Assembly: GCF_025717515.1 (NCBI RefSeq) | Contig: NZ_JAJIRN010000003.1 | Coordinates: 248,001-312,000, forward strand | Source: Roseateles oligotrophus | Lineage (GTDB): Bacteria > Pseudomonadota > Gammaproteobacteria > Burkholderiales > Burkholderiaceae_C | DNA: 64,000 nucleotides | Direction of reading: 5' to 3' | Part shown: positions 6,348-20,527 of the stretch, one piece after another | How positions within the stretch are numbered: the first letter of the stretch is position 1 | Layout of the letters: every line of letters starts with the position of its first letter | The notes under the pieces: generated by a model | What the model was told of the DNA's origin: nothing | Databases searched by the model: none | What the model saw: the letters and a program-made list of their open reading frames with translations, nothing else | Program-made: the position numbers and the translations under genes

Positions 6348-8669
6348 ATGAGCACTTTCTTCAAGCACCTGATGGGGGCCATGGCCGCGTTCGCGGCGCT
6401 TTGTGCCTGGCCGTCTGCCTGGGCCGCAGGCTCGGGCGGCGGAGCCACCGTGGATTTGCGCGACCCGATGTTCTGGCTGATCGCCTTCAGCGTGCTCGGC
6501 GCCGTGGCCATGGGTTTGGTATTGGCGCTGGTGCAATCGCAGCGCTTGCGCCTGCGCCAGCGGCGCAGCGAGTTGCAGCGGGTTCGGCGCGAGCGCAGCA
6601 AGCTGCAAGCCTTGCTCAACGCCATCCCCGACCCGGTCTATTTCAAGGACGCCCAAGGTGCCTACGAGGGTTGCAACCCGGCTTTTGAGCGCTGCACCGG
6701 CCTGCTTGAGGCGCAATTGATCGGGCAGCGTGACGATCAAATCGAGCAGCGCCCGGAGTGGAGTGGGGCGCTGGCCGGAGCCGCCGGCAATAACCATTCA
6801 ACGCAACGCACGCTGGCCTGGGTGACCCAGCCCGGCGGTGAGCGCGCTTGTCTGGACGTCGTTCAGGCGCGGGTGTTTGACGAGGGCCAATGTATGGGTC
6901 AGATCGGCGTGGCGCGCGATGTGACGGCGCTGCGCGAGGCGACCACCAAGCTGCACCGCGCGGTCACCGTGTTCGAGCATTGCGGCGAAGGCATCATGAT
7001 GATGGATGCCGACTTGCTGATTCGCGATGTCAACCCGGCGTTGAGCGCCATCACCGGCTATTCATGTGACGAGTTGCTGGGCACCATGCCTCACTACCTG
7101 CAACTGGGTGAGCAAGGTGCCGAGGTCTTGAAGGAGCTGTGGACCGATGTCGGTGCCAAGGGCAAATGGAGCGGTGAGTTGGTGGACCGCCATAAAGACG
7201 GCAGCTGCATACCCCTGTGGGTGACCATCGTCAGCGTGCCTGCCGCCGAACAGGGCGGCGAGCCGCATTATCTGGCGGTGCTGACCGACATCTCGCGCAT
7301 CAAGCAGACCGAGGCCGAACTGCTGCATCAGAAGCTGCATGATCGCTTGACCGGCCTGCCTAACCTTGCTTTGCTGCGGGACCGGATCGAGCGTCAAGTG
7401 GGGGTCGCTCAGCGCGACCAGACTTGCGTGGCGGTGCTCTATGTCGATCTGGATGGCTTCCGCGAGGTCAATGACATTGCCGGCCACAGCGCCGGCGATG
7501 CGGTGCTGAAGGAGGCTGCGGCGCGTTTCGTCAATGTGGTGCGGGCCAGCGACTCGGTCGCGCGCGTCGGCGCCGACGAGTTCGTTATCGTGCTGTCGGG
7601 CCTGGTCGACGAAGAAACCGCGATGCGCTTGGGCGAGCGCCTGATCGATGCGATGCGCGAGCCGATTTTTGATGGCCAGATCGACATCAGCAAGCGCTTC
7701 AATCTGGGTGCCAGCATAGGCTTGGCTTTGTTCCCGACCGATGGCGTGACGGTCGATGATTTGCTCCGCAACTCCGAGGCGGCGATGGTGCGCGCCAAGG
7801 CCCATGCCCGCAACAGCGTGCAAGCCTATCGGCCGGAGCTGACGCAGGCAGTCAAGCAGCGCTTTGAGCTGACCCATGCCTTGCGCCACGCCAATGAAGC
7901 GGCGCAGTTCCGGCTGGAGTATCAGCCGCAGGTGCGGCTCTCGGACGGCGCCTTGATAGGTGCCGAGGCGCTGCTGCGCTGGCGCCACCCGACGCGCGGG
8001 CCGATCTCGCCGATGGAGTTCATCCCGCTGGCCGAAGAGACCGGCCTGATCATCCCGATCGGCCGTTGGGTGCTGGAGACCGCCTGTGCCCAGGCCGCAC
8101 GCTGGCAAGGTGTGCCGGGCAAACCGCAACAGGTGGCGGTCAATGTGTCGGCGCGGCAGTTGCGCCAGGCCGACTTTATTCAAACGGTGGACTTCATCCT
8201 GGCCGAGACCGGCTGCCCCGCCCATGCGCTGGAACTCGAAGTGACCGAGAGCCTGCTGCTGGAAGACGCCGAGGGTGCGATCGAGCTGCTGGGCGCCTTG
8301 AAGTCGCGCGGCGTGCGGGTGGCGATCGATGATTTCGGCACCGGCTATTCCTCGCTGTCTTATCTGCGCCGCATGCCTGTCAACACGCTCAAGATCGACC
8401 GCAGCTTCGTCTCCGAGCTGGGTCAGGACGCCAACGTCGCCGCGATTGCCCGCACCGTCATCGTGCTGGCGCGCAGCCTGCATCTGGATGTATTGGCCGA
8501 GGGCGTCGAGACGGCCGAGCAGGCCGCCTGGCTGCAGCGCGAGGGTTGCGACTGGGCGCAGGGTTGGCATTACGGCCGGCCGATGCCGGCGGAGGACTTC
8601 GCCGTCATCCAACAGGTTTTGCCGGTAGGGCCCAAGCTGGCGGTGGTGAAGCGGCTGCAGCTGGCTTGA
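6348..8669 (+). CDS. membrane PAS-PAS-GGDEF-EAL protein, probable c-di-GMP phosphodiesterase
   Basis: 773 residues. A signal-like segment and a transmembrane helix (about 38-60) are followed by an arginine-rich coil, two PAS domains (about 85-200 and 205-325), a GGDEF domain (about 330-490) and an EAL domain (about 505-755). The cyclase motif is GADEF at about 407, one residue off consensus, although an RxxD (RASD) inhibitory site is kept. The EAL domain has EALLRW (about 540), NVSARQ, LEVTES, DDFGTGYSS, LKIDRSFV and AEGVET, so hydrolysis of c-di-GMP looks intact. I infer a phosphodiesterase whose GGDEF half is inactive or regulatory. Its 3' end is duplicated at 13453-13508. Confidence 0.92.
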   Translation: MSTFFKHLMGAMAAFAALCAWPSAWAAGSGGGATVDLRDPMFWLIAFSVLGAVAMGLVLALVQSQRLRLRQRRSELQRVRRERSKLQALLNAIPDPVYFKDAQGAYEGCNPAFERCTGLLEAQLIGQRDDQIEQRPEWSGALAGAAGNNHSTQRTLAWVTQPGGERACLDVVQARVFDEGQCMGQIGVARDVTALREATTKLHRAVTVFEHCGEGIMMMDADLLIRDVNPALSAITGYSCDELLGTMPHYLQLGEQGAEVLKELWTDVGAKGKWSGELVDRHKDGSCIPLWVTIVSVPAAEQGGEPHYLAVLTDISRIKQTEAELLHQKLHDRLTGLPNLALLRDRIERQVGVAQRDQTCVAVLYVDLDGFREVNDIAGHSAGDAVLKEAAARFVNVVRASDSVARVGADEFVIVLSGLVDEETAMRLGERLIDAMREPIFDGQIDISKRFNLGASIGLALFPTDGVTVDDLLRNSEAAMVRAKAHARNSVQAYRPELTQAVKQRFELTHALRHANEAAQFRLEYQPQVRLSDGALIGAEALLRWRHPTRGPISPMEFIPLAEETGLIIPIGRWVLETACAQAARWQGVPGKPQQVAVNVSARQLRQADFIQTVDFILAETGCPAHALELEVTESLLLEDAEGAIELLGALKSRGVRVAIDDFGTGYSSLSYLRRMPVNTLKIDRSFVSELGQDANVAAIARTVIVLARSLHLDVLAEGVETAEQAAWLQREGCDWAQGWHYGRPMPAEDFAVIQQVLPVGPKLAVVKRLQLA

Positions 8670-8677
8670 TTTCATCG
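8621..8677 (+). repeat. direct repeat copy A (3' end of the EAL gene)
   Basis: Bases 8621-8677 match 13453-13508 in the same orientation at 49 of 57 aligned positions, counted by hand, with one single-base gap. The longest exact run is GGTGGTGAAGCGGCTG. The repeat includes the last codons and stop of the EAL gene (PKLAVVKRLQLA-stop here, PKLVVVKRLKLA-stop in copy B). The two copies bracket the peptide-export island. Confidence 0.8.
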
Positions 8678-8720
8678 CTTTGGCTTGCCGTTTAAGTAGG
8701 GCTCTACGCTGCGTCAACGG

Positions 8721-10764
8721 TCAAGTTCCGCTTGGCGCCAGCACCCGAGCCAGTTCCGCAACCTGACCCAGTTGCACCAACACCACCCGTTTTGCACCGG
8801 CGATCGTCTCCGGCCGGTGCGCAATGATCAGGCGCGTCAGCTGCAATTGACCCAAGGCAGCCGTTACCGCACGTTCGTTGGTCACGTCGAGGTGACTGTT
8901 GGCCTCATCCAAGGCCAACACGCGCGGCTGCTTTTACAAGGCGCGTGCAAGCAGCAGCCGTTGCTTCTGCCCGCCGGAGAGCCCTGAACCCAAGTCACCG
9001 ACCAAGGTTTGATAGCCCATGGGCATGCGCACGATGTCGTCATGCAATTGCGCCAGCTTGGCGCAGGATTCCAAGCGAGCCTGATCGGGCTGAACATCGA
9101 AAAATGCGATATTTTCAGCCAATGAGCCGGTCAAAAGCGTGTCCTCCTGCATCACCGTGCCGATCTGGCGGCGGAAGTTGGCCAGGCCGAGTTGGCGCAC
9201 CGGCATCGCGCCGAACAACACTTCACCCTCACAGGGTTTGAGCAGGCCGAGTGCGATTTTCAACAGCGTCGACTTTCCGGCGCCCGAGGGCCCGGTCACG
9301 GCCACGCTTTCGCCGGCCTCAATGAGAAAGTTCGCGTTGCGCAGAATCCATGGCTCGCCCTCGGCATAGCGAAAACTCACATTGCGTAGTTCGATGCTGG
9401 GAAGCAGGTGCGCCAGATTGCTGTCGGGTTGCTCATCGCGTTCGGGTGGCTCCAGCGCAATATCGGCTGCTGAATTGAGTCTTGTAGCTGATGGAGGCAA
9501 ACAGCATGCCTACGGTCATGCCCCCCGCCAACCCGGCGCCGGCAAACTGGCTGCTGATGATCAGCTTTGCTCCCAACCAAAGCACCAACAGGTTCTCCAC
9601 GCCGAAGATCAAACCATGGGCGGTGTTGAGGCCCATGCTCATCTTGGCCGTGCGCACATCGCGGTTCTGCACCTCGACGATCAGGTTTTGCCAACGCGCG
9701 CGGCGTTCCTCCTCGCGGCCGAACAGTTTGAGTGGTGTGATGGCGTGCAGGGTCTCCAGGAAATGAGTGCTTTCCCTGGCAGCCACCACCAAGCGTTCGG
9801 CGGCCGCGTCACGAAACGGCTGGTAGGCGGCCCAACGCAGCAGCCCGTAGGCGGCGACCGCTGCGATGACCACAGCAGCCAGAGTCGGCGCGTAGATCAG
9901 CATCATGAGCAGAGCAGCCACGGCCATCAGACCATCGAGCAAGGCTTCGACGGCGGCCGTGGCGAGGGTCTTCTGGATCGCGCCGACGGCCCCGAAGCGC
10001 GAACTGATGTCGCCCAGATGGCGCTTTTCAAAGAACTCGACGGGCAGGCGCACGAGGTGGGCGAACACATTGCCCATCCATTGCAGACTCAAGGTCTGAC
10101 CCAGCAAGATCACCATCCAGGAGCGTGCCAGGGCCAGAGCTGTTTGCACGAGCAGCAACAGGCCGAAACCGATCACGAGCACCGCCAGTAGATCGCGGTC
10201 GCCGGAGCTGAGCACATCGTCCACGACCAGCTGATTGAACAAGGGTGCGACGATGGCAAACAGTTCCAGCACCACAGCCACCGCGAAGATCTGCAAGAGC
10301 GAGCGCTTCAGGCCTAGCACCTTGCCGGTCAGTGCCCGCAGCGAGACGCGCGGTGCCGGAGCTTGGCTCTTGAACTCGGTGTTGGGCGTCAGCTCCAAGG
10401 CCACGCCGGTGAAGTGGCGGGAAATCTCGGAGAAAGGCAGGCGTCTCTCGCCCACGGCGGGGTCAAGGATCAAAGCTCCGCTGCGATTCACCCGCTTTAG
10501 CACCACGAAGTGATTCATATCCCAGTGCAGGATGCAAGGGGTTTGCAGCTCCTTGAGTTCGTCCAGATCCAGCTTCAGTGGGCGGGAAGAAAACCCCATG
10601 GCGCCGGCATGAGCCATCAATTGCTGCAGGGTGGCGCCTTTCAGGCTGACCGAAAAACGCCGGCGCAAAGTGACCAAATCCTGCTGCAGACCGTACGCGC
10701 TGCTGACCATTGCCAGGCAGGCGAGGCCGCATTCACTGGATTCGGATTGGAGGATTGCGGTCAT
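8721..10764 (-). pseudogene. broken C39-peptidase ABC exporter (bacteriocin/microcin type)
   Basis: An intact gene here would encode an inner-membrane exporter of about 700 residues that cuts double-glycine leaders and secretes the peptide. The peptidase domain is complete: Gln6, Cys12 (ESSECGLACLAMV), His85 and Asp101. The membrane domain follows, and after it an ATPase with Walker A (GPSGAGKST), Q-loop, LSGGQKQR, Walker B (LALDEA) and H-loop. Two lesions break it. At about 9464-9474 the frame shifts between YKTQFS and ADIALEPPE; by family comparison from memory some 20-25 residues are missing. At 8934-8936 a TAA stop replaces the tyrosine codon expected between RAL and KQPR. The start overlaps the CPBP stop (ATGA). 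A split but working gene is unlikely. Confidence 0.85.
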
Positions 10765-11426
10765 GGTTTTTGCTGCGCTGCGCTCTTTTTACTTATATGG
10801 GCGGCTAGCTTTCGGCTGGGTATTAAGGATGGATACTTTGGAATTTTCCACAACAAAATAGCTAAACCAGCCAGAAGAACCATAGCAAACGCGAAAGCCA
10901 TAAGGGGTTTAATGCTTGCGCAATGAATGCCGAATATTTCTTCTTTTGGAATCAATATAAATATATTTAATGAAGCGTGCGACAAAAAGGAATCAAGCAG
11001 CGAATTTCGCTTCAGGTAGATAATGGCATAAACCATCCCGGCTATCCAGACTGCGAGTAAATTTCCCGGATCAAAGTAGTTGATAATATATTGACTATGT
11101 CCGGCCGTGAATAGCATCGATGAGATAAATGCAGCGTAGGCCCAGTGCATTTTTCTCACTAAGGCGGTCAGCAAGCACTTCCTGAAAATATATTCTTCAA
11201 TTATTGGGGAAACAAGGACGGCAATCAGCAACCCCAAGATTGTTGCTGGTACTTTTTGGTCCCATTCAGTTAGGCGGGAATTAGTGCACAAAAGAAATTC
11301 GGTTAAATGGCCATTTGGCAAGAGGGGCAGCAGCAGTCGCATTGCCATATAGAGCAGCAGTGCAGCGACGACCAAGGCAATATATCGATTGAAATATTGC
11401 AAGCCTTGAGTGCAAAAATGGCGCAT
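10761..11426 (-). CDS. CPBP-family intramembrane metalloprotease-like protein, possible immunity protein
   Basis: 221 residues with about six to seven membrane helices. All CPBP (Abi/Rce1-like) signatures are present: E77-E78-x3-R82, F106-x3-H110 and H150-x3-N154. Members cleave peptides in the membrane, and several next to bacteriocin genes act in self-immunity (known for the family). Its position, directly behind the double-glycine precursor and overlapping the exporter start by ATGA, makes immunity or peptide processing likely; this is inference. The gene is clearly more AT-rich than its surroundings, which suggests transfer. ATG 11426 is used; TTG 11435 is an alternative. A weak ribosome site precedes both. 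Confidence 0.8.
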   Translation of the reverse strand: MRHFCTQGLQYFNRYIALVVAALLLYMAMRLLLPLLPNGHLTEFLLCTNSRLTEWDQKVPATILGLLIAVLVSPIIEEYIFRKCLLTALVRKMHWAYAAFISSMLFTAGHSQYIINYFDPGNLLAVWIAGMVYAIIYLKRNSLLDSFLSHASLNIFILIPKEEIFGIHCASIKPLMAFAFAMVLLAGLAILLWKIPKYPSLIPSRKLAAHISKKSAAQQKP

Positions 11427-11442
11427 ATCTATCAATTATTGA

Positions 11443-11613
11443 TTAAAATTTTGACATGATGATTTTAATGATAATAGTTCCTGCGATACCTACCCAGGGC
11501 AGATTGCCTAATCCTGGCTCCGGTGTTGGAACCGGCGCGCGTCCTGCGGGTGTGCCAGCCCAGCTATCGCCGCCAGCAACGACACTGATTTCATTTTGAG
11601 TAAGCGTCTTCAT
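11443..11613 (-). CDS. double-glycine leader peptide precursor (bacteriocin/microcin-like)
   Basis: 56 residues, ATG 11613 to TAA 11443, with a good ribosome site (AGGGAA, 6 bases upstream). The leader MKTLTQNEISVVAGG is a textbook double-glycine leader: Leu, Glu-Ile, a hydrophobic position and GG at 14-15, the site a C39 peptidase cuts. The predicted mature peptide (residues 16-56, 41 residues) has a Gly/Pro-rich half and a hydrophobic tail (GIAGTIIIKIIMSKF). It has no cysteine, so no disulfide or thioether. It lies 16 bases upstream of the CPBP gene and downstream of the HlyD gene, in a peptide-export cluster. Antimicrobial activity is inferred; a signalling peptide is possible. Confidence 0.8.
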   Translation of the reverse strand: MKTLTQNEISVVAGGDSWAGTPAGRAPVPTPEPGLGNLPWVGIAGTIIIKIIMSKF

Positions 11614-11641
11614 ATAGTTTCCCTGTAGATTTCAAACAAAC

Positions 11642-11661
11642 GGTGAACATGGCCGTTCACC
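11642..11661 (-). terminator. stem-loop between the HlyD gene and the precursor gene
   Basis: A perfect 7-base stem (GGTGAAC / GTTCACC) with a 6-base loop lies 28 bases upstream of the precursor ATG. On the minus strand it is followed by GTTTGTTTG. It could be a weak terminator or attenuator, or an RNA structure that sets peptide level relative to the adaptor. A less regular hairpin (CTTCA-CCC / GGG-TGAAG) sits at 11677-11701. Function not shown by sequence alone. Confidence 0.4.
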
Positions 11662-11710
11662 ACTTCTTGTGTCGACCTTCACCCTTTTGGGTTGGATGAA
11701 GTCTTCGCAC

Positions 11711-13017
11711 TCAAACTTTTAGCAAACCAGATGCCGCAAGCACCGGCGCCAGCATCCATTCCCATACCGCCCGGCGGTCCTGCAGCACATCGGCGTCAAG
11801 CGTCAGCCCGCTTTCAGCGGCTGGGATTTGCCATAGACCGTGACCGCCTGCCGGCCTAGTTGTACGGTGATCCGATACAGCGGTTCGTTGGACTGGGCGG
11901 CGCTTAGCAGTGCCTGAGCCTGGCCCAGGGGTAGATCTTGCGCAGCGATCGGCGTCTGACTGACTGCCGTGACCTTGCCTTCGGCCATGCCGAACTTCTG
12001 ATAGGGATAAGCGGCGTAGCGCAGCCAAACAGTCTGCCCCGGTCGCACAAAGCCGGTCGTGCGACTGGGGGCGAACAACTGAGCCTCCAGGCTGCCCGGC
12101 GCGCTCTCCGCTGCGGCTTCACGTTGCTGCGACACCAGGCTGATTAACGTCTGGCCCGTTTGGACGGCTTGGCCCGGATGTAGCGTCAGCGCGCTGACGG
12201 TTGCTGCTTGCGGCGCGGTGATCGTCAGGCCAAGACGGGCCTCGTTCTCGATGGACTCCTGGCTCAGGGCGGCCAGTGAGCGGTCAATCTGCGCCAAGGT
12301 GGTTTGCGCACTGGTGAGAGTGCTGGTCAACTCGGCGCGCAGCGCCTGGGTGTCGCGCAGCAGGGCCTGAAGCGAGCGCTCGGCATTGCGTTCGCGCAAT
12401 TGCAGATCCAACAGCTCTTCTTGCTTCTGCTGCACCTGGCTGGCAGACACAAAGCCGCTGCGCGCCAATTCGGCAAAGCGCTCCTGGCTCTTGACGGCAA
12501 GCTGGGCGCGTAAGCGGCTGGTGTCGAGTTCGCCTTGCGCCTGGCGCTCCTCGGCCTGCAGGCTGCGCAGTCGATCGTTCAGTGCATCCTGGCGTTGCCG
12601 GGCTTGCTGCTGAGTCAAGAGGCGTTCGGTATCGAGGCCGGCACGACGTTGGGCGATTGCCTGAGCGTTCAGCGCCGAGGCTTCGCCGGAACCTGTGATG
12701 CGCTCGCTGTGCAAGCGCATCAAGGCTTGACCCGGGCGTACGACTTCGCCCTCTTGCACCAACACTTCGGCGACTTGGCCGGCCTGCGGTGCAGCTATTT
12801 GCAGCAGTCCGCCGCTGGGCACCAACAGGCCAGGCAACTTAGCCTTGCCGGTCACCTCGCCCAGCCAGGCAAAGGCGATCAACGCTGCCGCAAGCAGCAA
12901 CGCGGTGCCAGTGACCCACGCGAAGCTTGCCGGGCGGCCGATACGTATATTGCCCAGCCATTGCACCTGCTTGGCTTGCAAAACCTCTGCCCGGAATAGC
13001 GGGCTAGCGTTGCTCAT
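11711..13017 (-). pseudogene. HlyD-family peptide secretion adaptor, C-terminal frameshift
   Basis: The open frame from ATG 13017 gives 404 residues and stops at 11803. It is a periplasmic adaptor protein of the HlyD/CvaA type: one membrane helix near residue 35, a lipoyl half (KLPGLLVPSGGLLQI), a long coiled coil (about 120-270) and a second barrel. Normal family members end with a conserved LDAD-x(3)-DRR tail. That tail exists here in another frame (TLDADVLQDRRAVWEWML, ending at 11711), just past the stop. Inserting one base before the TGA would give ...LKAG-M-TLDADV..., so a single-base deletion is the simplest cause. A strong ribosome site (GGAGG) precedes ATG 13017. Residual function with a shortened end cannot be excluded. 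Confidence 0.75.
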
Positions 13018-13539
13018 TTGATTTTTCCTCCCTGCGGAACTACCGTTTGCTTCGTCGTCCGTCCCTGCTCTCCGGCATGTCTCGGTACGACTGGCCACAA
13101 GTGTTCCAAACTTGGGGGGGGACCCCTCGGGTGCGGGGGTGGGAATTCGAAGGGAAGTGGAAGTCTCGGTGCGACGCGCGCATATCTTGTCTTGTAAGCT
13201 GTGGCTATGCACGTAAACCCTTTTGAAAGCGTGATGCAAAGCTGTGTAAGCCGGCATTTGTTGGAAGGGCCAGCGGCGCCGATGCCCATCATTTCACGCC
13301 GCAAGAACTTGGAGACTGGCCCAATGTTCCGGAAATCCAACGACTCTGTCGCCGCGAACCCGTGTGAACGCGCGGGCATCTCGGTGACTTCGCGCTGGCA
13401 TTGCATGCTATTCATTGGGAAGGCAAGGACGCCACCGCCTTTGTGCAATGTCGCCGGCAGACCCGAAGCTGGTGGTGGTGAAGCGGCTGAAGTTGGCTTG
13501 ATTCATCGTACTGTCATGCAGCCCTGGCAGGCTGGCGAG
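13018..13539. other. intergenic region between the peptide-export island and ppk2
   Basis: 522 bases without a supported gene. It should hold the promoter for the minus-strand HlyD gene and whatever drives ppk2. It contains an eight-G run at 13114-13121 and direct repeat copy B at 13453-13508. The plus-strand frame is open in phase with ppk2 from 13201, but the translation resembles nothing I recognise and has no ribosome site, so I treat it as noncoding or as remnant sequence. Confidence 0.6.
13453..13508 (+). repeat. direct repeat copy B, diverged EAL-gene 3' end
   Basis: Imperfect copy of 8621-8677 lying 32 bases before the ppk2 start. Read in the phase of the EAL gene it still encodes PKLVVVKRLKLA followed by TGA, but nothing recognisable as EAL lies upstream of it. 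It may be a relic of target duplication, a displaced gene end, or the last trace of a deleted paralogue. Confidence 0.75.
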
Positions 13540-14478
13540 ATGACTAGCAAAACACCCCAGCAAGAAGTCTCGGCCGCCGAAGAACATGCCGAGATGATGC
13601 AGCGCATGCAGGCCGATCTGATCGACAGCTACGACGAAGAGCTGGAGATGGAGATCGATGACCGCGCTTTTGACGAAGGTGGTGGCGTCTTCAGCGCCGA
13701 GCAGCGGGCTCAGCGCCGCGCCTATTTCAAGGAGCTGTTCCGCCTGCAGGGCGAGTTGGTCAAGCTGCAGGACTGGGTGGTGGCGACCAAACACAAGGCG
13801 GTGATCATTTTTGAAGGTCGTGACGCGGCCGGCAAGGGCGGCGTCATCAAGCGCATCACCCAGCGCCTGAATCCGCGCGTCTGCCGCGTGGCGGCGCTGC
13901 CAGCGCCGAACGACCGCGAGCGCACGCAGTGGTATTTCCAACGCTATATCTCGCATCTGCCGGCCGGCGGCGAGATCGTCTTGTTTGACCGCAGCTGGTA
14001 CAACCGCGCCGGCGTCGAGCGGGTGATGGGCTTTTGCTCGGACGAGGAGTACGAGGAATTCTTCCGCTCGGTGCCCGAGTTCGAAAAGATGCTGGTGCGC
14101 GCCGGCATCCAGGTCATCAAATACTGGTTCTCGATCACCGATGAGGAGCAGCACACGCGCTTTTTGGGGCGCATCCATGACCCGCTCAAGCAGTGGAAGC
14201 TGAGCCCGATGGATCTGGAGTCGCGCCGCCGCTGGGAGGACTACACCAAGGTCAAAGAGACCATGATGGAGCGCACCCATATCGAGGAAGCGCCTTGGTG
14301 GGTGGTGCAGGCGGTCGACAAGAAGAAGGCGCGGCTCAATTGCATGGCGCATTTGCTGGCGCAGATGCCGTATCACGAGGTCGAGCATGCGCCCGTCACC
14401 TTGCCGCCGCGCGAGCGGCGTGACGACTACGCCCGCCAACCGGTGCCGCCGGAGATGGTGGTGCCGGAGATCTATTGA
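13540..14478 (+). CDS. ppk2: polyphosphate kinase 2
   Basis: 312 residues from ATG 13540. PPK2 transfers phosphate between polyphosphate and nucleoside diphosphates (ADP or GDP), linking polyphosphate stores to nucleotide pools in the cytoplasm. Walker A is FEGRDAAGKGG, the lid and Walker B region reads LFDRSWYNRAGVERVMGF, and the conserved WYFQRYISHLP and KYWFSITDEEQ blocks are present. An acidic helical N-terminus (about 20-60, rich in E and D) precedes the core. ATG 13516 in the same frame is an alternative start. Sequence does not tell whether ADP or GDP is preferred; it is close to single-domain class I enzymes. Confidence 0.95.
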   Translation: MTSKTPQQEVSAAEEHAEMMQRMQADLIDSYDEELEMEIDDRAFDEGGGVFSAEQRAQRRAYFKELFRLQGELVKLQDWVVATKHKAVIIFEGRDAAGKGGVIKRITQRLNPRVCRVAALPAPNDRERTQWYFQRYISHLPAGGEIVLFDRSWYNRAGVERVMGFCSDEEYEEFFRSVPEFEKMLVRAGIQVIKYWFSITDEEQHTRFLGRIHDPLKQWKLSPMDLESRRRWEDYTKVKETMMERTHIEEAPWWVVQAVDKKKARLNCMAHLLAQMPYHEVEHAPVTLPPRERRDDYARQPVPPEMVVPEIY

Positions 14479-16915: not shown

Positions 16916-19900
16916 ATGTCCACATTCACTCTGCCACCCGAAGCCGCCCGCCTGCCCGACCCCTATCGCGAGGAGATCGCGGTCGTCAATGCCTTGGCGC
17001 AAACCATCGGCGACGGGCTTGATTGGTCGACGGTGCTGACCTTGGCCGGCCCCTGGGTGCAGCAGGTGCGCGCTAACCCGGCGCCGTTCTGGGCGATGGA
17101 GTCGCTGCTGCGCGAGTACCCGATCAGCAGCTCCGAGGGCTTGGCCCTGATGCGCTTGGCCGAGGCCTTGCTGCGCGTGCCGGATGCGCCGACCGCGATC
17201 GCGCTGACTGCCGACCAACTCGGCCGCGGCCAGTTCGACGGCAGCTCGGAAGGCCCGCACAAGATGTTCGCGGCGCTGTCGGCCTCGGCGATTTCGCTGT
17301 CGAAGAAGTTCCTGCCGGACGCCGAGGGTTCGGGCGGCCTGATGACCCGCTTGGGTGCGCAGACCGTCGTCAGCGCGACGGTGCGGGCGATCCAATTGCT
17401 GGGGCGCCAATTCGTGCTGGGGCGCAATATCAAGGAGGCGATGAACGAGGCCGCCGGCGCCCGCAAGGCCCAGCCGCAACTCAGTTTTTCCTATGACATG
17501 CTGGGCGAGGGCGCCCGCACCGAGGCCGATGCACGCCGCTATCACGCCGCCTATATCGGCGCCATCAAGGCCATCGCCAGCGGCGCCCGCGCCGACAACC
17601 CGCAGCAGGCCGACGGCATTTCGATCAAGCTCAGCGCCTTGTTCTCGCGTTATGAAGTGCTGCAGCGCGAGCGCGTGTTTGCCGAGTTGCTGCCGCGGGT
17701 CTGGGAGCTGATCACCTTGGCCGCGCAGGCCAATATCAACCTGACCATCGATGCCGAAGAGGTCGACCGCCTAGAGCTGTCACTCGACGTGCTGGACACG
17801 CTGGCCGCCCGCATCGCCAGCACCTATCCGCAATGGCAGGGCTTCGGTCTGGCCGTGCAGGCCTATCAGACGCGTGCGCTGCAGGTGATTCACGAAGTCG
17901 CCGCAATTGCCCACAAGCATGGCCTGCGCTTCATGGTGCGGCTGGTCAAGGGTGCTTATTGGGACGGCGAAATCAAGCGCGCCCAGGAGCAGGGCCTGGC
18001 CGCCTACCCGGTGTTCACGCACAAGCAGCACACCGATGTGTCTTACCTCGCCTGCGCGCAGGCGCTGATAGCCCATGCCGATGTGATCTATCCGCAGTTC
18101 GCCAGCCACAACGCCGGCACCATCGCCGCCATCGTGCTGATGGCCCGCAAGGCGAATGCCAAGTTCGAGATGCAGCGCCTGCATGGCATGGGCGAAGGCG
18201 TCTACCGCGAGGTCTTGCGCGACGGCACGATCCCCTGCCGCGTCTACGCGCCGGTCGGCGAGCACCGCGACCTGTTGGCCTATCTGGTGCGCCGCCTGCT
18301 GGAGAACGGCGCCAATTCTTCCTTTGTCCATCAGCTGGCCGACGTCAATGTGCAAGTGCCCGAGCTGCTCGGTTCGCCCTTGCAAGAGCTGCAGACGGCG
18401 GGTGCATTGCCGCTGCCCGGGGCGCTCTACTTTGACCGCCTCGGCCATGGCCGCGTCAACTCGACCGGCGCCGACCTGACCGATATCGCGCAGCGCCGGC
18501 CGCTGCAGCTGGCGCTTGAGCAGTGCCAGGTCTTGCCCGTCGCCGAGGCCAGCCCCGCCTATCTGGCCTCGACGATGGCCGGCTTGCAGGCCGGTTTCGC
18601 GGGCTGGAACGCCGTGCCCGTGCAAGAGCGCGCCGCCGTGATGCGCCGCGCTGCCGATGCGCTGGACGCCCGCCTGGCCGAGTTTTGCGCGCTGCTGGTC
18701 AAGGAGGCCTTCAAAACCCAAGGCGACTGCGTGGCCGAGGTTCGCGAGGCCGTTGACTTCTTGCGTTACTACGCCGACCAGGCCGAGAGCGACGGCCCGG
18801 CCATGCAAGGCCGTGGCGTGTTCGTCTGCATCAGCCCCTGGAACTTCCCGCTGGCGATTTTTGCCGGCCAGGTGGTGGCGGCGCTGGTCGCCGGCAACAC
18901 GGTGGCGGCCAAGCCGGCCGAGCAGACGCCGTTTGTGGCGCTGAAATTTGTCGAGCTGCTGTATGCCGCCGGCGTCCCGCATGACGCGCTGCAACTGTTG
19001 CACGGCGCCGGTGAGACGGTCGGCGCCGGCCTGGTGGCGGCCGAGCAAACCGCCGGCGTCTGCTTCACCGGCTCGACTCAAGTGGCGCAGATCATCAACC
19101 GCACGCTGGCAGCCAAAGAGGGTCAGATCGTGCCTCTGATCGCCGAAACCGGCGGCCTCAATGCGATGCTGGTCGACTCGACCGCCTTGCCCGAGCAGGT
19201 CATCGACGCGGTGGTGCAGTCGGCCTTCCGTTCGGCAGGCCAGCGCTGCTCGGCGCTGCGTCTGCTGTGCGTGCACGAGAGCATTGCCGACGGCGTGATC
19301 GAAATGCTCAGCGGCGCGCTGCAGGAGCTGTGGGTCGGCCAGCCGGCCGAGCTGGCCACCGATGTCGGCCCGGTCATTGATGACGAGGCGTTCGAGAACG
19401 TCGCCAAGAACATCGAGCGCCTGAAGCGCGAGGCCAAGCTGATCGCCGAGGCGCCGGTGCATGACGGCATGCCGCGCCTGATTCGCCCGGTCGCTTTCGA
19501 GCTGAGCAATATCAGCGCCTTGCGCCAGGAAATTTTCGGCCCGGTGCTGCATGTGGTGCGCTGGGGCGGCGAGCCGGACGCGGTGATCGAGCAGATCAAT
19601 GCGCTGGGCTATGGCCTGACGCTGGGCATACAGACCCGCATCGACAGCCGCGCGCTGCGCCTAGCCCACAAGGCCCGCATCGGTAACGTCTATGTCAACC
19701 GCAACATCATCGGCGCGGTGGTCGGTGTACAGCCCTTCGGTGGCGAAGGCATGTCCGGCACCGGCCCGAAGGCGGGTGGCCCGAACTATCTGTATCGTTT
19801 CTGCGCCGTGCCGGCCGTGAATCACATCGTCGAGGCGGCATCCAGCGCAGCCGCTGCCGTGCCGGCCGTGCCGGTGGCTTCGGCGGTGGCCGCGCTGGCG

Positions 19901-20527
19901 GCGGGCTATGAGGTTTGGAGCGACAAGCCCTTGAGCGAGCGGGTCGCGCTCTTGCGCCGCGCCTTCGAGGGACAGCCGCAGGCGAACGCCGTCAACAGCC
20001 GTTTGCTTCAAGCGGAGCGCTTGCTCGCCGACAAATTGCTGCCCGGCCCAACCGGTGAGAGCAATGAGTTGCGCCAGCATGGTCGTGGTGTGCTGGCCCT
20101 GCAAGCCAGCGGCGCCTCGCCAGACGCCTTGGCATTGGCGCTGACTGCGGCCTTGGTAGCAGGCAATGCGGTGGCCTTGCTGGTGGACTCAACGAGTGCG
20201 GCGCAGGCTGAAACGCTGCAAGGACGATTGCGCGCCGCCGGCCTGCCGGCGGAGGTCTTGGTCTTGCTGCCGGGAGCCGCGCAGAGCCTGACGGCACTGT
20301 TGGATGACGAGCGCGTGGCCGGCGTCTGTCTGCTCAGCGCTAACGCCACCACCGAGCGGAACTTGCTGCGTCAGATGGCCGCCGATGATGGGGCCATTCG
20401 ACAACTGATCACGGCGCAGGAGTTGTTTGATGTGCGCCAGCAATACCGTTTCAGCGCCGAACAAACGCTGACCATCAATACGGCAGCCGCCGGCGGCAAC
20501 GCGGCCTTGCTGGCCGGCATGCATTGA
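16916..20527 (+). CDS. putA: bifunctional proline dehydrogenase / L-glutamate gamma-semialdehyde dehydrogenase
   Basis: 1203 residues. The enzyme oxidises proline to glutamate in two steps: an FAD proline dehydrogenase barrel (about 80-460, with SIKLSALFSRYE, LTIDAEEVDRLELS and RLVKGAYWDGEIK) and an NAD-dependent dehydrogenase (about 530-985). In the latter Glu744 (AETGG) and Cys778 (GQRCSALR) are the catalytic residues. A C-terminal domain (about 1020-1203) is a degenerate aldehyde dehydrogenase-like fold, as in long PutA proteins. There is no N-terminal ribbon-helix-helix, so it does not repress its own gene; the divergent Lrp regulator probably serves. A terminator follows 23 bases after the stop. 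Confidence 0.96.
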   Translation: MSTFTLPPEAARLPDPYREEIAVVNALAQTIGDGLDWSTVLTLAGPWVQQVRANPAPFWAMESLLREYPISSSEGLALMRLAEALLRVPDAPTAIALTADQLGRGQFDGSSEGPHKMFAALSASAISLSKKFLPDAEGSGGLMTRLGAQTVVSATVRAIQLLGRQFVLGRNIKEAMNEAAGARKAQPQLSFSYDMLGEGARTEADARRYHAAYIGAIKAIASGARADNPQQADGISIKLSALFSRYEVLQRERVFAELLPRVWELITLAAQANINLTIDAEEVDRLELSLDVLDTLAARIASTYPQWQGFGLAVQAYQTRALQVIHEVAAIAHKHGLRFMVRLVKGAYWDGEIKRAQEQGLAAYPVFTHKQHTDVSYLACAQALIAHADVIYPQFASHNAGTIAAIVLMARKANAKFEMQRLHGMGEGVYREVLRDGTIPCRVYAPVGEHRDLLAYLVRRLLENGANSSFVHQLADVNVQVPELLGSPLQELQTAGALPLPGALYFDRLGHGRVNSTGADLTDIAQRRPLQLALEQCQVLPVAEASPAYLASTMAGLQAGFAGWNAVPVQERAAVMRRAADALDARLAEFCALLVKEAFKTQGDCVAEVREAVDFLRYYADQAESDGPAMQGRGVFVCISPWNFPLAIFAGQVVAALVAGNTVAAKPAEQTPFVALKFVELLYAAGVPHDALQLLHGAGETVGAGLVAAEQTAGVCFTGSTQVAQIINRTLAAKEGQIVPLIAETGGLNAMLVDSTALPEQVIDAVVQSAFRSAGQRCSALRLLCVHESIADGVIEMLSGALQELWVGQPAELATDVGPVIDDEAFENVAKNIERLKREAKLIAEAPVHDGMPRLIRPVAFELSNISALRQEIFGPVLHVVRWGGEPDAVIEQINALGYGLTLGIQTRIDSRALRLAHKARIGNVYVNRNIIGAVVGVQPFGGEGMSGTGPKAGGPNYLYRFCAVPAVNHIVEAASSAAAAVPAVPVASAVAALAAGYEVWSDKPLSERVALLRRAFEGQPQANAVNSRLLQAERLLADKLLPGPTGESNELRQHGRGVLALQASGASPDALALALTAALVAGNAVALLVDSTSAAQAETLQGRLRAAGLPAEVLVLLPGAAQSLTALLDDERVAGVCLLSANATTERNLLRQMAADDGAIRQLITAQELFDVRQQYRFSAEQTLTINTAAAGGNAALLAGMH

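Follow-up and report, generated by a model that had tools for sequence, protein, structure and literature searches.

A putative microcin-like peptide module, probably acquired and now decaying, in Roseateles oligotrophus

We consider it rather probable (about 0.7) that the 64 kb stretch of Roseateles oligotrophus DNA analysed here (the window) carries an acquired microcin-like module that is decaying, that is unable to export its peptide by its own pump and in which a CPBP membrane protease is likely the immunity protein. An earlier sequence-only reading of the locus had overlooked that the exporter is interrupted twice and that the HlyD frame is lost near the C-terminus.

Results

The precursor ORF

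The sequence-only reading had proposed a 56-codon double-glycine precursor without Cys and with a good ribosome site, and these features were all recovered:

11443..11613, minus strand: double-glycine precursor, whole ORF (56 codons, ATG start, no Cys)
11569..11613, minus strand: leader MKTLTQNEISVVAGG, codons 1-15 (L-12, E-8, I-7, V-4, GG)
11533..11568, minus strand: 'tag' DSWAGTPAGRAP, the first 12 mature residues, codons 16-27 (GC 0.75)
11446..11532, minus strand: core VPTPEPGLGNLPWVGIAGTIIIKIIMSKF, codons 28-56 (GC 0.41)
11620..11624, minus strand: ribosome-binding-like AGGGA, 6 nt before the precursor ATG

The leader follows the double-glycine pattern, with hydrophobic residues at -4, -7 and -12 (V, I and L) and GG at -2/-1. 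We take the E at position -8 (within codons 1-15 of the precursor) to be a leader feature as well. Positions -15, -12, -7 and -4 are described as important in such leaders (excerpt of PMC7018657). When ATG-initiated ORFs of 30-130 aa were scanned, the precursor was the sole leader-type ORF in the window under both the strict and the loose pattern. The chance expectation, estimated on 60 second-order Markov copies of the window, was a mean of 0.017 (strict) or 0.267 (loose) such ORFs per 64 kb, and a strict leader-type ORF with a ribosome site occurred in none of the 60 copies. The mature peptide, 41 residues without Cys, has a net charge (KR minus DE) of only +1, and a helix was predicted in the core at 39-55 (pLDDT 72-73 for this block, mean of 58 for the whole model).

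The precursor peptide had no Pfam or NCBIfam match up to E 1 and none in PHROGs or plasmids, while the PDB returned maltose-binding proteins only (E 0.24-0.33). As regards membership of the class II microcins, no family model or solved microcin or bacteriocin structure was matched in Pfam, NCBIfam or the PDB. In 148 genomes of relatives, the single-peptide search gave one strong match beyond the own gene (G007, E 9e-7); the remaining matches up to E 1 were weak, the next (0.0018) lying in a 563-aa frame. A five-peptide profile, built from the window precursor and four same-genus peptides, matched 4 of the 148 genomes, namely the own one, G004, G007 and, weakly, G060 (E 0.009). Four matches to a two-sequence profile (E 0.002-0.004, in frames of 146-539 aa; with the own one, 5 of 399 genomes of the order) were taken as chance. 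On sequence grounds, we nevertheless consider the ORF to encode genuinely a class II microcin/bacteriocin-like secreted-peptide precursor.

Relatives of the core in other genera

The order HlyD, precursor, CPBP, C39 is shared by two loci, both in other genera: L093, a Rhodoferax MAG with a 59-aa precursor between HlyD and CPBP, and L195 (genome G652, another genus of the same family), with a precursor of 57 aa. The mature parts of the three peptides have in common EPGLG(N/H) followed by a hydrophobic stretch, EPGLG being invariant. The window core matched that of L195 with a z of 12.5 and that of L093 with 9.1, against -0.8 for the same-genus peptide of L063, and its codons differ from those of L195 in a coding manner (pS 0.83, pN 0.28).

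These loci answer several points raised by the sequence-only reading. The same four-gene order exists in related genomes with a conserved mature core, a conserved small ORF is thus present in two relatives, and the changes in tag and core look coding (pS > pN) rather than noncoding. Its statement that the mature sequence has no close relative holds for Pfam, NCBIfam, PHROGs, the PDB and plasmids, but not for genomes, where the two core relatives were found. In the openly licensed literature searched, neither a GG peptide paired with a CPBP protein in Burkholderiales nor an EPGLG(N/H) core was encountered; for Paucibacter aquatile, antibacterial activity and a predicted bacteriocin cluster are reported (PMC5920192).

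The exporter and the adaptor are broken

Pfam matches confirmed the placement that the sequence-only reading had given to the precursor, between HlyD and CPBP and upstream of a C39 exporter; on the minus strand, the genes follow one another as HlyD, precursor, CPBP and C39 exporter.

11803..13017 (about), minus strand: HlyD-type adaptor, frame lost near the C-terminus
10761..11435, minus strand: CPBP (Rce1-like) intramembrane protease, 224 aa, open frame (PF02517, E 1.2e-17)
9433..10764, minus strand: C39 peptidase and membrane domain of the exporter (PF03412, E 3.9e-34); the ORF ends past the deletion
9467..9470, minus strand: about where 68 bp are deleted by comparison with six exporters of the genus
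8934..9467, minus strand: remnant of the ATPase domain, read in a different frame and reaching to the in-frame TAA 8934-8936
8721..8933, minus strand: remainder of the ATPase domain beyond the stop, a relic of 70 residues

The exporter and adaptor genes adjoin the precursor and are homologous to intact ones in relatives. In the exporter, C12, H85 and D101 of the peptidase align with the solved bacteriocin transporter 4ry2, and we take them to be the catalytic Cys/His/Asp of the C39 peptidase. TIGR03796 (NHLP/Nif11-type) gave 240 bits against a cut-off of 853, a score obtained on the 443-aa exporter fragment only. By comparison with the exporters of L063b, L065, L066, L068, L069 and L070, all open frames of 707-709 aa, 68 bp are missing between the membrane and ATPase domains and the reading frame is therefore lost. 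The in-frame TAA comes before the LALDEA stretch, presumably the Walker B-like motif. In HlyD, the final 31 residues, similar to those of L063, lie in another frame and extend to 11711.

A sequencing error was rejected as the origin of the exporter break, since a 68-bp deletion and a separate stop are two lesions unlike a base-call slip and since long frames of the window are open (6348..8669, 773 aa; 16916..20527, 1203 aa). The small HlyD lesion, on its own, could be a sequencing error. The window exporter is a pseudogene.

In the own genome, two C39 domains were detected: that of the window exporter and that of a 255-aa solo peptidase. No other C39-ABC exporter was found with the one Pfam model used on this draft assembly (5.76 Mb in 55 contigs; listed completeness 100%). 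With the exporter broken twice, the adaptor frame lost and no second C39-ABC found, export by the module's own pump is impossible as sequenced. The intact exporter and adaptor of a class II microcin system are lacking in the window (deletion, TAA, HlyD frame loss). The sequence-only proposal that the precursor is the substrate of the island stands in part: the precursor belongs to an HlyD/CPBP/C39 module, but a module that works in this genome is not supported.

The solo peptidase (PF03412; L002 1318-2085) lies on the same contig as the window and is followed by a 337-aa ORF (L002 302-1315) which has no Pfam match and looks like an outer-membrane barrel. We take this pair to be reminiscent of Fap/nap-type systems.

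The exporter is damaged in L195 as well, where its similarity stops after about residue 181, beside an integrase-core (rve) transposase ORF (L195 4360-5541), and the 5.5 kb beyond this stop yielded no more of the exporter. In L093, exporter similarity ends 127 bp short of the contig end, immediately ahead of the GPSGAGK stretch. The exporter is thus broken in both assessable modules with an EPGLG(N/H) core, the window and L195.

The island and its insertion site

8672..13452: island of about 4.8 kb; the site is without it in the five nearest relatives
8621..8671, plus strand: left 51-nt direct repeat, the end of the PAS-GGDEF-EAL gene 6348..8669
13453..13503, plus strand: right-hand copy of the 51-nt direct repeat (86%), ahead of PPK2 (13540..14478)

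In the nearest relatives, the EAL gene has its end at the position of the right repeat. This PAS-GGDEF-EAL gene is present in 15 of 18 genomes of the genus, own included (E 1e-200). It is followed by PPK2 without the island in all five nearest relatives, with a gap of 2-3 bp in G001, G003 and G005 (EAL protein similarity 92-93%) and of about 50-65 bp in G012 and G006 (86-87%). G002, whose EAL match of 89% is partial (441 residues), was left out of the five; its junction contains about 1.0 kb. Six other members of the genus, G002 among them, carry about 1.0-3.7 kb of other DNA between EAL and PPK2 (L173-L176, L179 and L180), and the junction is possibly an insertion hot spot in the genus. In L177 and L178, no PPK2 match was present in the stretch after the EAL gene, and the L181 stretch ends early. 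At E 1e-8, neither HlyD nor C39 was matched in any of these stretches.

The GC content is 0.50 for the precursor, 0.43 for CPBP, 0.63 for HlyD and 0.62 for the exporter. The best reading of the island is a horizontally gained module that would be of class II microcin-like type.

The precursor is a mosaic

The tag is identical in 11 of its 12 residues to that of the same-genus peptide of L063 (z 10.3), while the post-GG residues of the window did not match those of L195 and L093 (z 1.2 and 0.6). Between the window and L063, codons 14-27 comprise 9 synonymous, 1 nonsynonymous and 4 identical codons (pS 0.78, pN 0.03), and leader codons 1-13 include 1 synonymous and 10 nonsynonymous changes. The GC content of 0.75 in codons 16-27 drops to 0.41 in codons 28-56; as leader codons 1-15 are at 0.47, GC alone marks no single breakpoint. 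Taken together, these comparisons point to a mosaic precursor, whose front matches a same-genus peptide and whose core, with CPBP, matches other genera.

A second tag, GGNALDTTTGSF, was found on unrelated cores. Between L093 and the first precursor of L196, it shows 8 synonymous and 0 nonsynonymous changes, the leader 2 and 8, and the next 15 codons 2 and 13. Five precursors were compared, and in their nine remaining pairs nonsynonymous changes affect 2 to 5 of 12 codons in the tag and 5 to 7 of 10 in the leader. This second tag family occurs in 2 of 185 genomes, the known carriers only. A general rule that tags follow the adaptor lineage is not supported beyond these cases: for 31 precursors passing length filters, the rank correlation was 0.10 for tags against -0.06 for cores (461 non-independent pairs).

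In L196 itself (6763-7183, G506), two tandem precursors carry one shared post-GG tag on unrelated cores, and the pair precedes a CPBP-like ORF and an exporter.

Tags that are kept on unrelated cores suggest that the tag would be a delivery part for interchangeable toxic cores, acting in receptor binding, entry or exporter fit. A three-part mosaic, in which a leader and a 12-residue delivery tag, better conserved than the leader, would be joined to an exchangeable toxic core with its own CPBP (a plug-in toxin at the 40-residue scale), is a tentative proposal which we regard as somewhat more doubtful than credible.

The CPBP protein goes with the core

The window CPBP keeps E80, E81 and R85, F109 and H113, and H153 and N157, and the corresponding motifs EExxxR, FxxxH and HxxxN are invariant in the five aligned proteins (HxxxN being, we assume, a motif of the family). 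Its fold model had a mean pLDDT of 39.5. It shows 32% similarity to the CPBP of L195 and 23% to that of L093. For HlyD, the similarity is 67% to L063 against 50% to L195. Because core and CPBP are common to other genera while tag, HlyD and exporter are nearest to the own genus, the CPBP would act on the core. Since it appears to travel with the core, the window CPBP is likely the immunity protein.

Close relatives of this CPBP were rare. At E 1e-6, the query found only the own genome among the 148 relatives; against the genome contigs, 16 stretches fitted a pattern and none was confirmed as a relative; a two-sequence profile at E 1e-12 found only the own genome among 399 of the order. A family search at E 1e-5 gave 9 of these 399 genomes, own included, and among the eight others HlyD and C39 lie alongside CPBP in G652 and G506 only.

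In PHROGs, the window CPBP (10761-11435) gave phrog_28058 (E 1.5e-8), a family of phage proteins to which no function is assigned. A CPBP protein of an E. coli plasmid was set aside: its neighbours are conjugation and umuDC genes, and the annotation lists no GG peptide. CPBP proteins in bacteriocin clusters are assigned roles in immunity, processing or regulation (excerpt of PMC9298176), and a putative CPBP miniprotein of Treponema pallidum is said to be without the motifs (excerpt of PMC9200625).

The module across relatives

Exporters of the window type were present in 47 of the 148 relatives, own included. To describe their surroundings, 89 loci were used, which were chosen by exporter similarity (the best 80 of 562 minus six duplicates, with 15 hand-picked from the 148-relative search); L067, fetched for a peptide match, was dropped, and L063 had also been picked for a peptide match. 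In these loci, 42 stretches between HlyD and C39 measure at least 600 bp and 42 are shorter, and 7 exporters have no HlyD in reach. The GC content is below that of the exporter in all 42 stretches of at least 600 bp (mean difference 0.10), and 26 of them contain a leader-type ORF under the loose pattern.

CPBP-motif ORFs, all eight confirmed by Pfam, numbered four in 88 kb of HlyD-to-C39 stretches (L063, L064, L074 and L093) against four in 1,005 kb of flanking DNA, where they start within about 0.7 kb of the expected end of the exporter gene.

Two loci of G007 show rearranged modules. In L063 (8529-10256), an open frame of 575 aa begins as a C39 exporter, up to about residue 411, and continues as the C-terminal part of an HlyD; it precedes a second complete module and reads as a trace of recombination between tandem modules. 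In L064 (5014-7576), a damaged module contains two partial copies of the exporter that overlap (residues 5-159 and 89-437), preceded by a CPBP gene and a small ORF whose leader is of the CG type.

Discussion

In class II microcins of the colicin V type, a C39 exporter operates with a membrane fusion protein and TolC (excerpt of PMC9746304). The window resembles them in its GG leader, its C39-ABC exporter and HlyD-type adaptor genes, its small peptide and a neighbouring membrane protein as candidate immunity; it differs in that no family model is matched, the candidate immunity protein is a CPBP protease and exporter and adaptor are broken. Known microcins all come from Enterobacteriaceae, according to a review (excerpt of PMC10233263). 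The pneumococcal blp and angicin loci likewise cluster a GG precursor, a C39 exporter and a CAAX/CPBP protein (excerpts of PMC9298176 and PMC4739721). In contrast to such Gram-positive class II bacteriocins, the window has an export route via HlyD, of Gram-negative type, no quorum-sensing genes were seen in it and no relation of its peptide to a known bacteriocin was found. Plantaricin is a further Gram-positive class II bacteriocin with CPBP/Abi proteins.

By analogy with known C39 systems, the C39 domain of an intact module would cut the precursor after GG, and the ABC exporter, HlyD and a TolC-type channel would secrete the 41-residue peptide. Its Pro/Gly-rich front would carry a hydrophobic helix that may act on the membranes of related bacteria, and the CPBP membrane protease, encoded just downstream and travelling with the core, would protect the producer. 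Killing and immunity are both functions predicted from sequence. In this genome, the precursor is probably an orphaned relic; the decaying module could still give immunity.

A selective alternative is an immunity-only strategy: loss of the exporter would have been favoured, and the precursor and CPBP retained. Pneumococci with a disrupted blpA, the 'cheater' strains, give an immunity response without inhibition of others (excerpt of PMC4739721), and like the window they have retained precursor and immunity-type genes next to a disrupted C39 exporter (same excerpt). That the exporter is also cut in L195, hence in 2 of 2 assessable modules with this core, speaks in the same direction. However, n is 2 and the third module, L093, ends at a contig edge; moreover, 6 of 73 exporter matches (own included) are open frames below 650 aa, contig-end cases possibly among them. 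If precursor and CPBP (843 bp) had collected lesions as densely as the two large genes, about 0.7 would be expected in them, so that their intact frames say little and may be luck. Unlike in the pneumococcal strains, no induction system was seen in the window, immunity is a predicted role and no second C39-ABC such as ComAB was found. We hold such selection to be possible, though simple decay seems to us the better wager.

It is unlikely that the CPBP is a maturation protease of the core instead of an immunity protein, the peptide then being cut twice. Peptide processing by members of the family is described for other systems (excerpt of PMC9298176), and core and CPBP travel jointly; yet an association with the core rather than with leader or tag is what immunity would predict too, and no obvious second cut site is common to the three cores. 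Less likely again is a signalling or self-lysis peptide. The Neisseria Nap peptides, which carry GG motifs and in which antimicrobial activity could not be detected (excerpt of PMC11798529), provide a precedent, and the low net charge of the window peptide would fit it. The nap island is, like the module studied here, a low-GC acquired island with GG peptides, but it has a solo C39 with a FapF-type channel where the window has a C39-ABC with HlyD, and no CPBP is named in the excerpted text (PMC11798529). Against signalling stand the pairing of CPBP with the core, the island ORF list, in which no regulator-like ORF was seen, and the varied cargo that relatives carry between HlyD and C39, which looks like weapon/immunity turnover. 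Finally, a chance ORF in AT-rich DNA, as might be suspected from its shortness and from the lack of Pfam and NCBIfam matches, can be dismissed as hardly conceivable in view of the core conserved in L195 and L093, the coding-type codon changes and the rarity of leader-type ORFs (0.017 per 64 kb).

The preferred reading is therefore that of an acquired, decaying microcin-like module with a candidate CPBP immunity protein. Its core, EPGLG(N/H) with a linked CPBP protein, represents a new type in Gram-negative bacteria. If the swap between tag and core is true, recombination within a gene of 56 codons separates a delivery part from a toxic part. Furthermore, the pneumococcal cheaters would have a Gram-negative counterpart here, with the exporter broken and the neighbouring candidate immunity gene intact.
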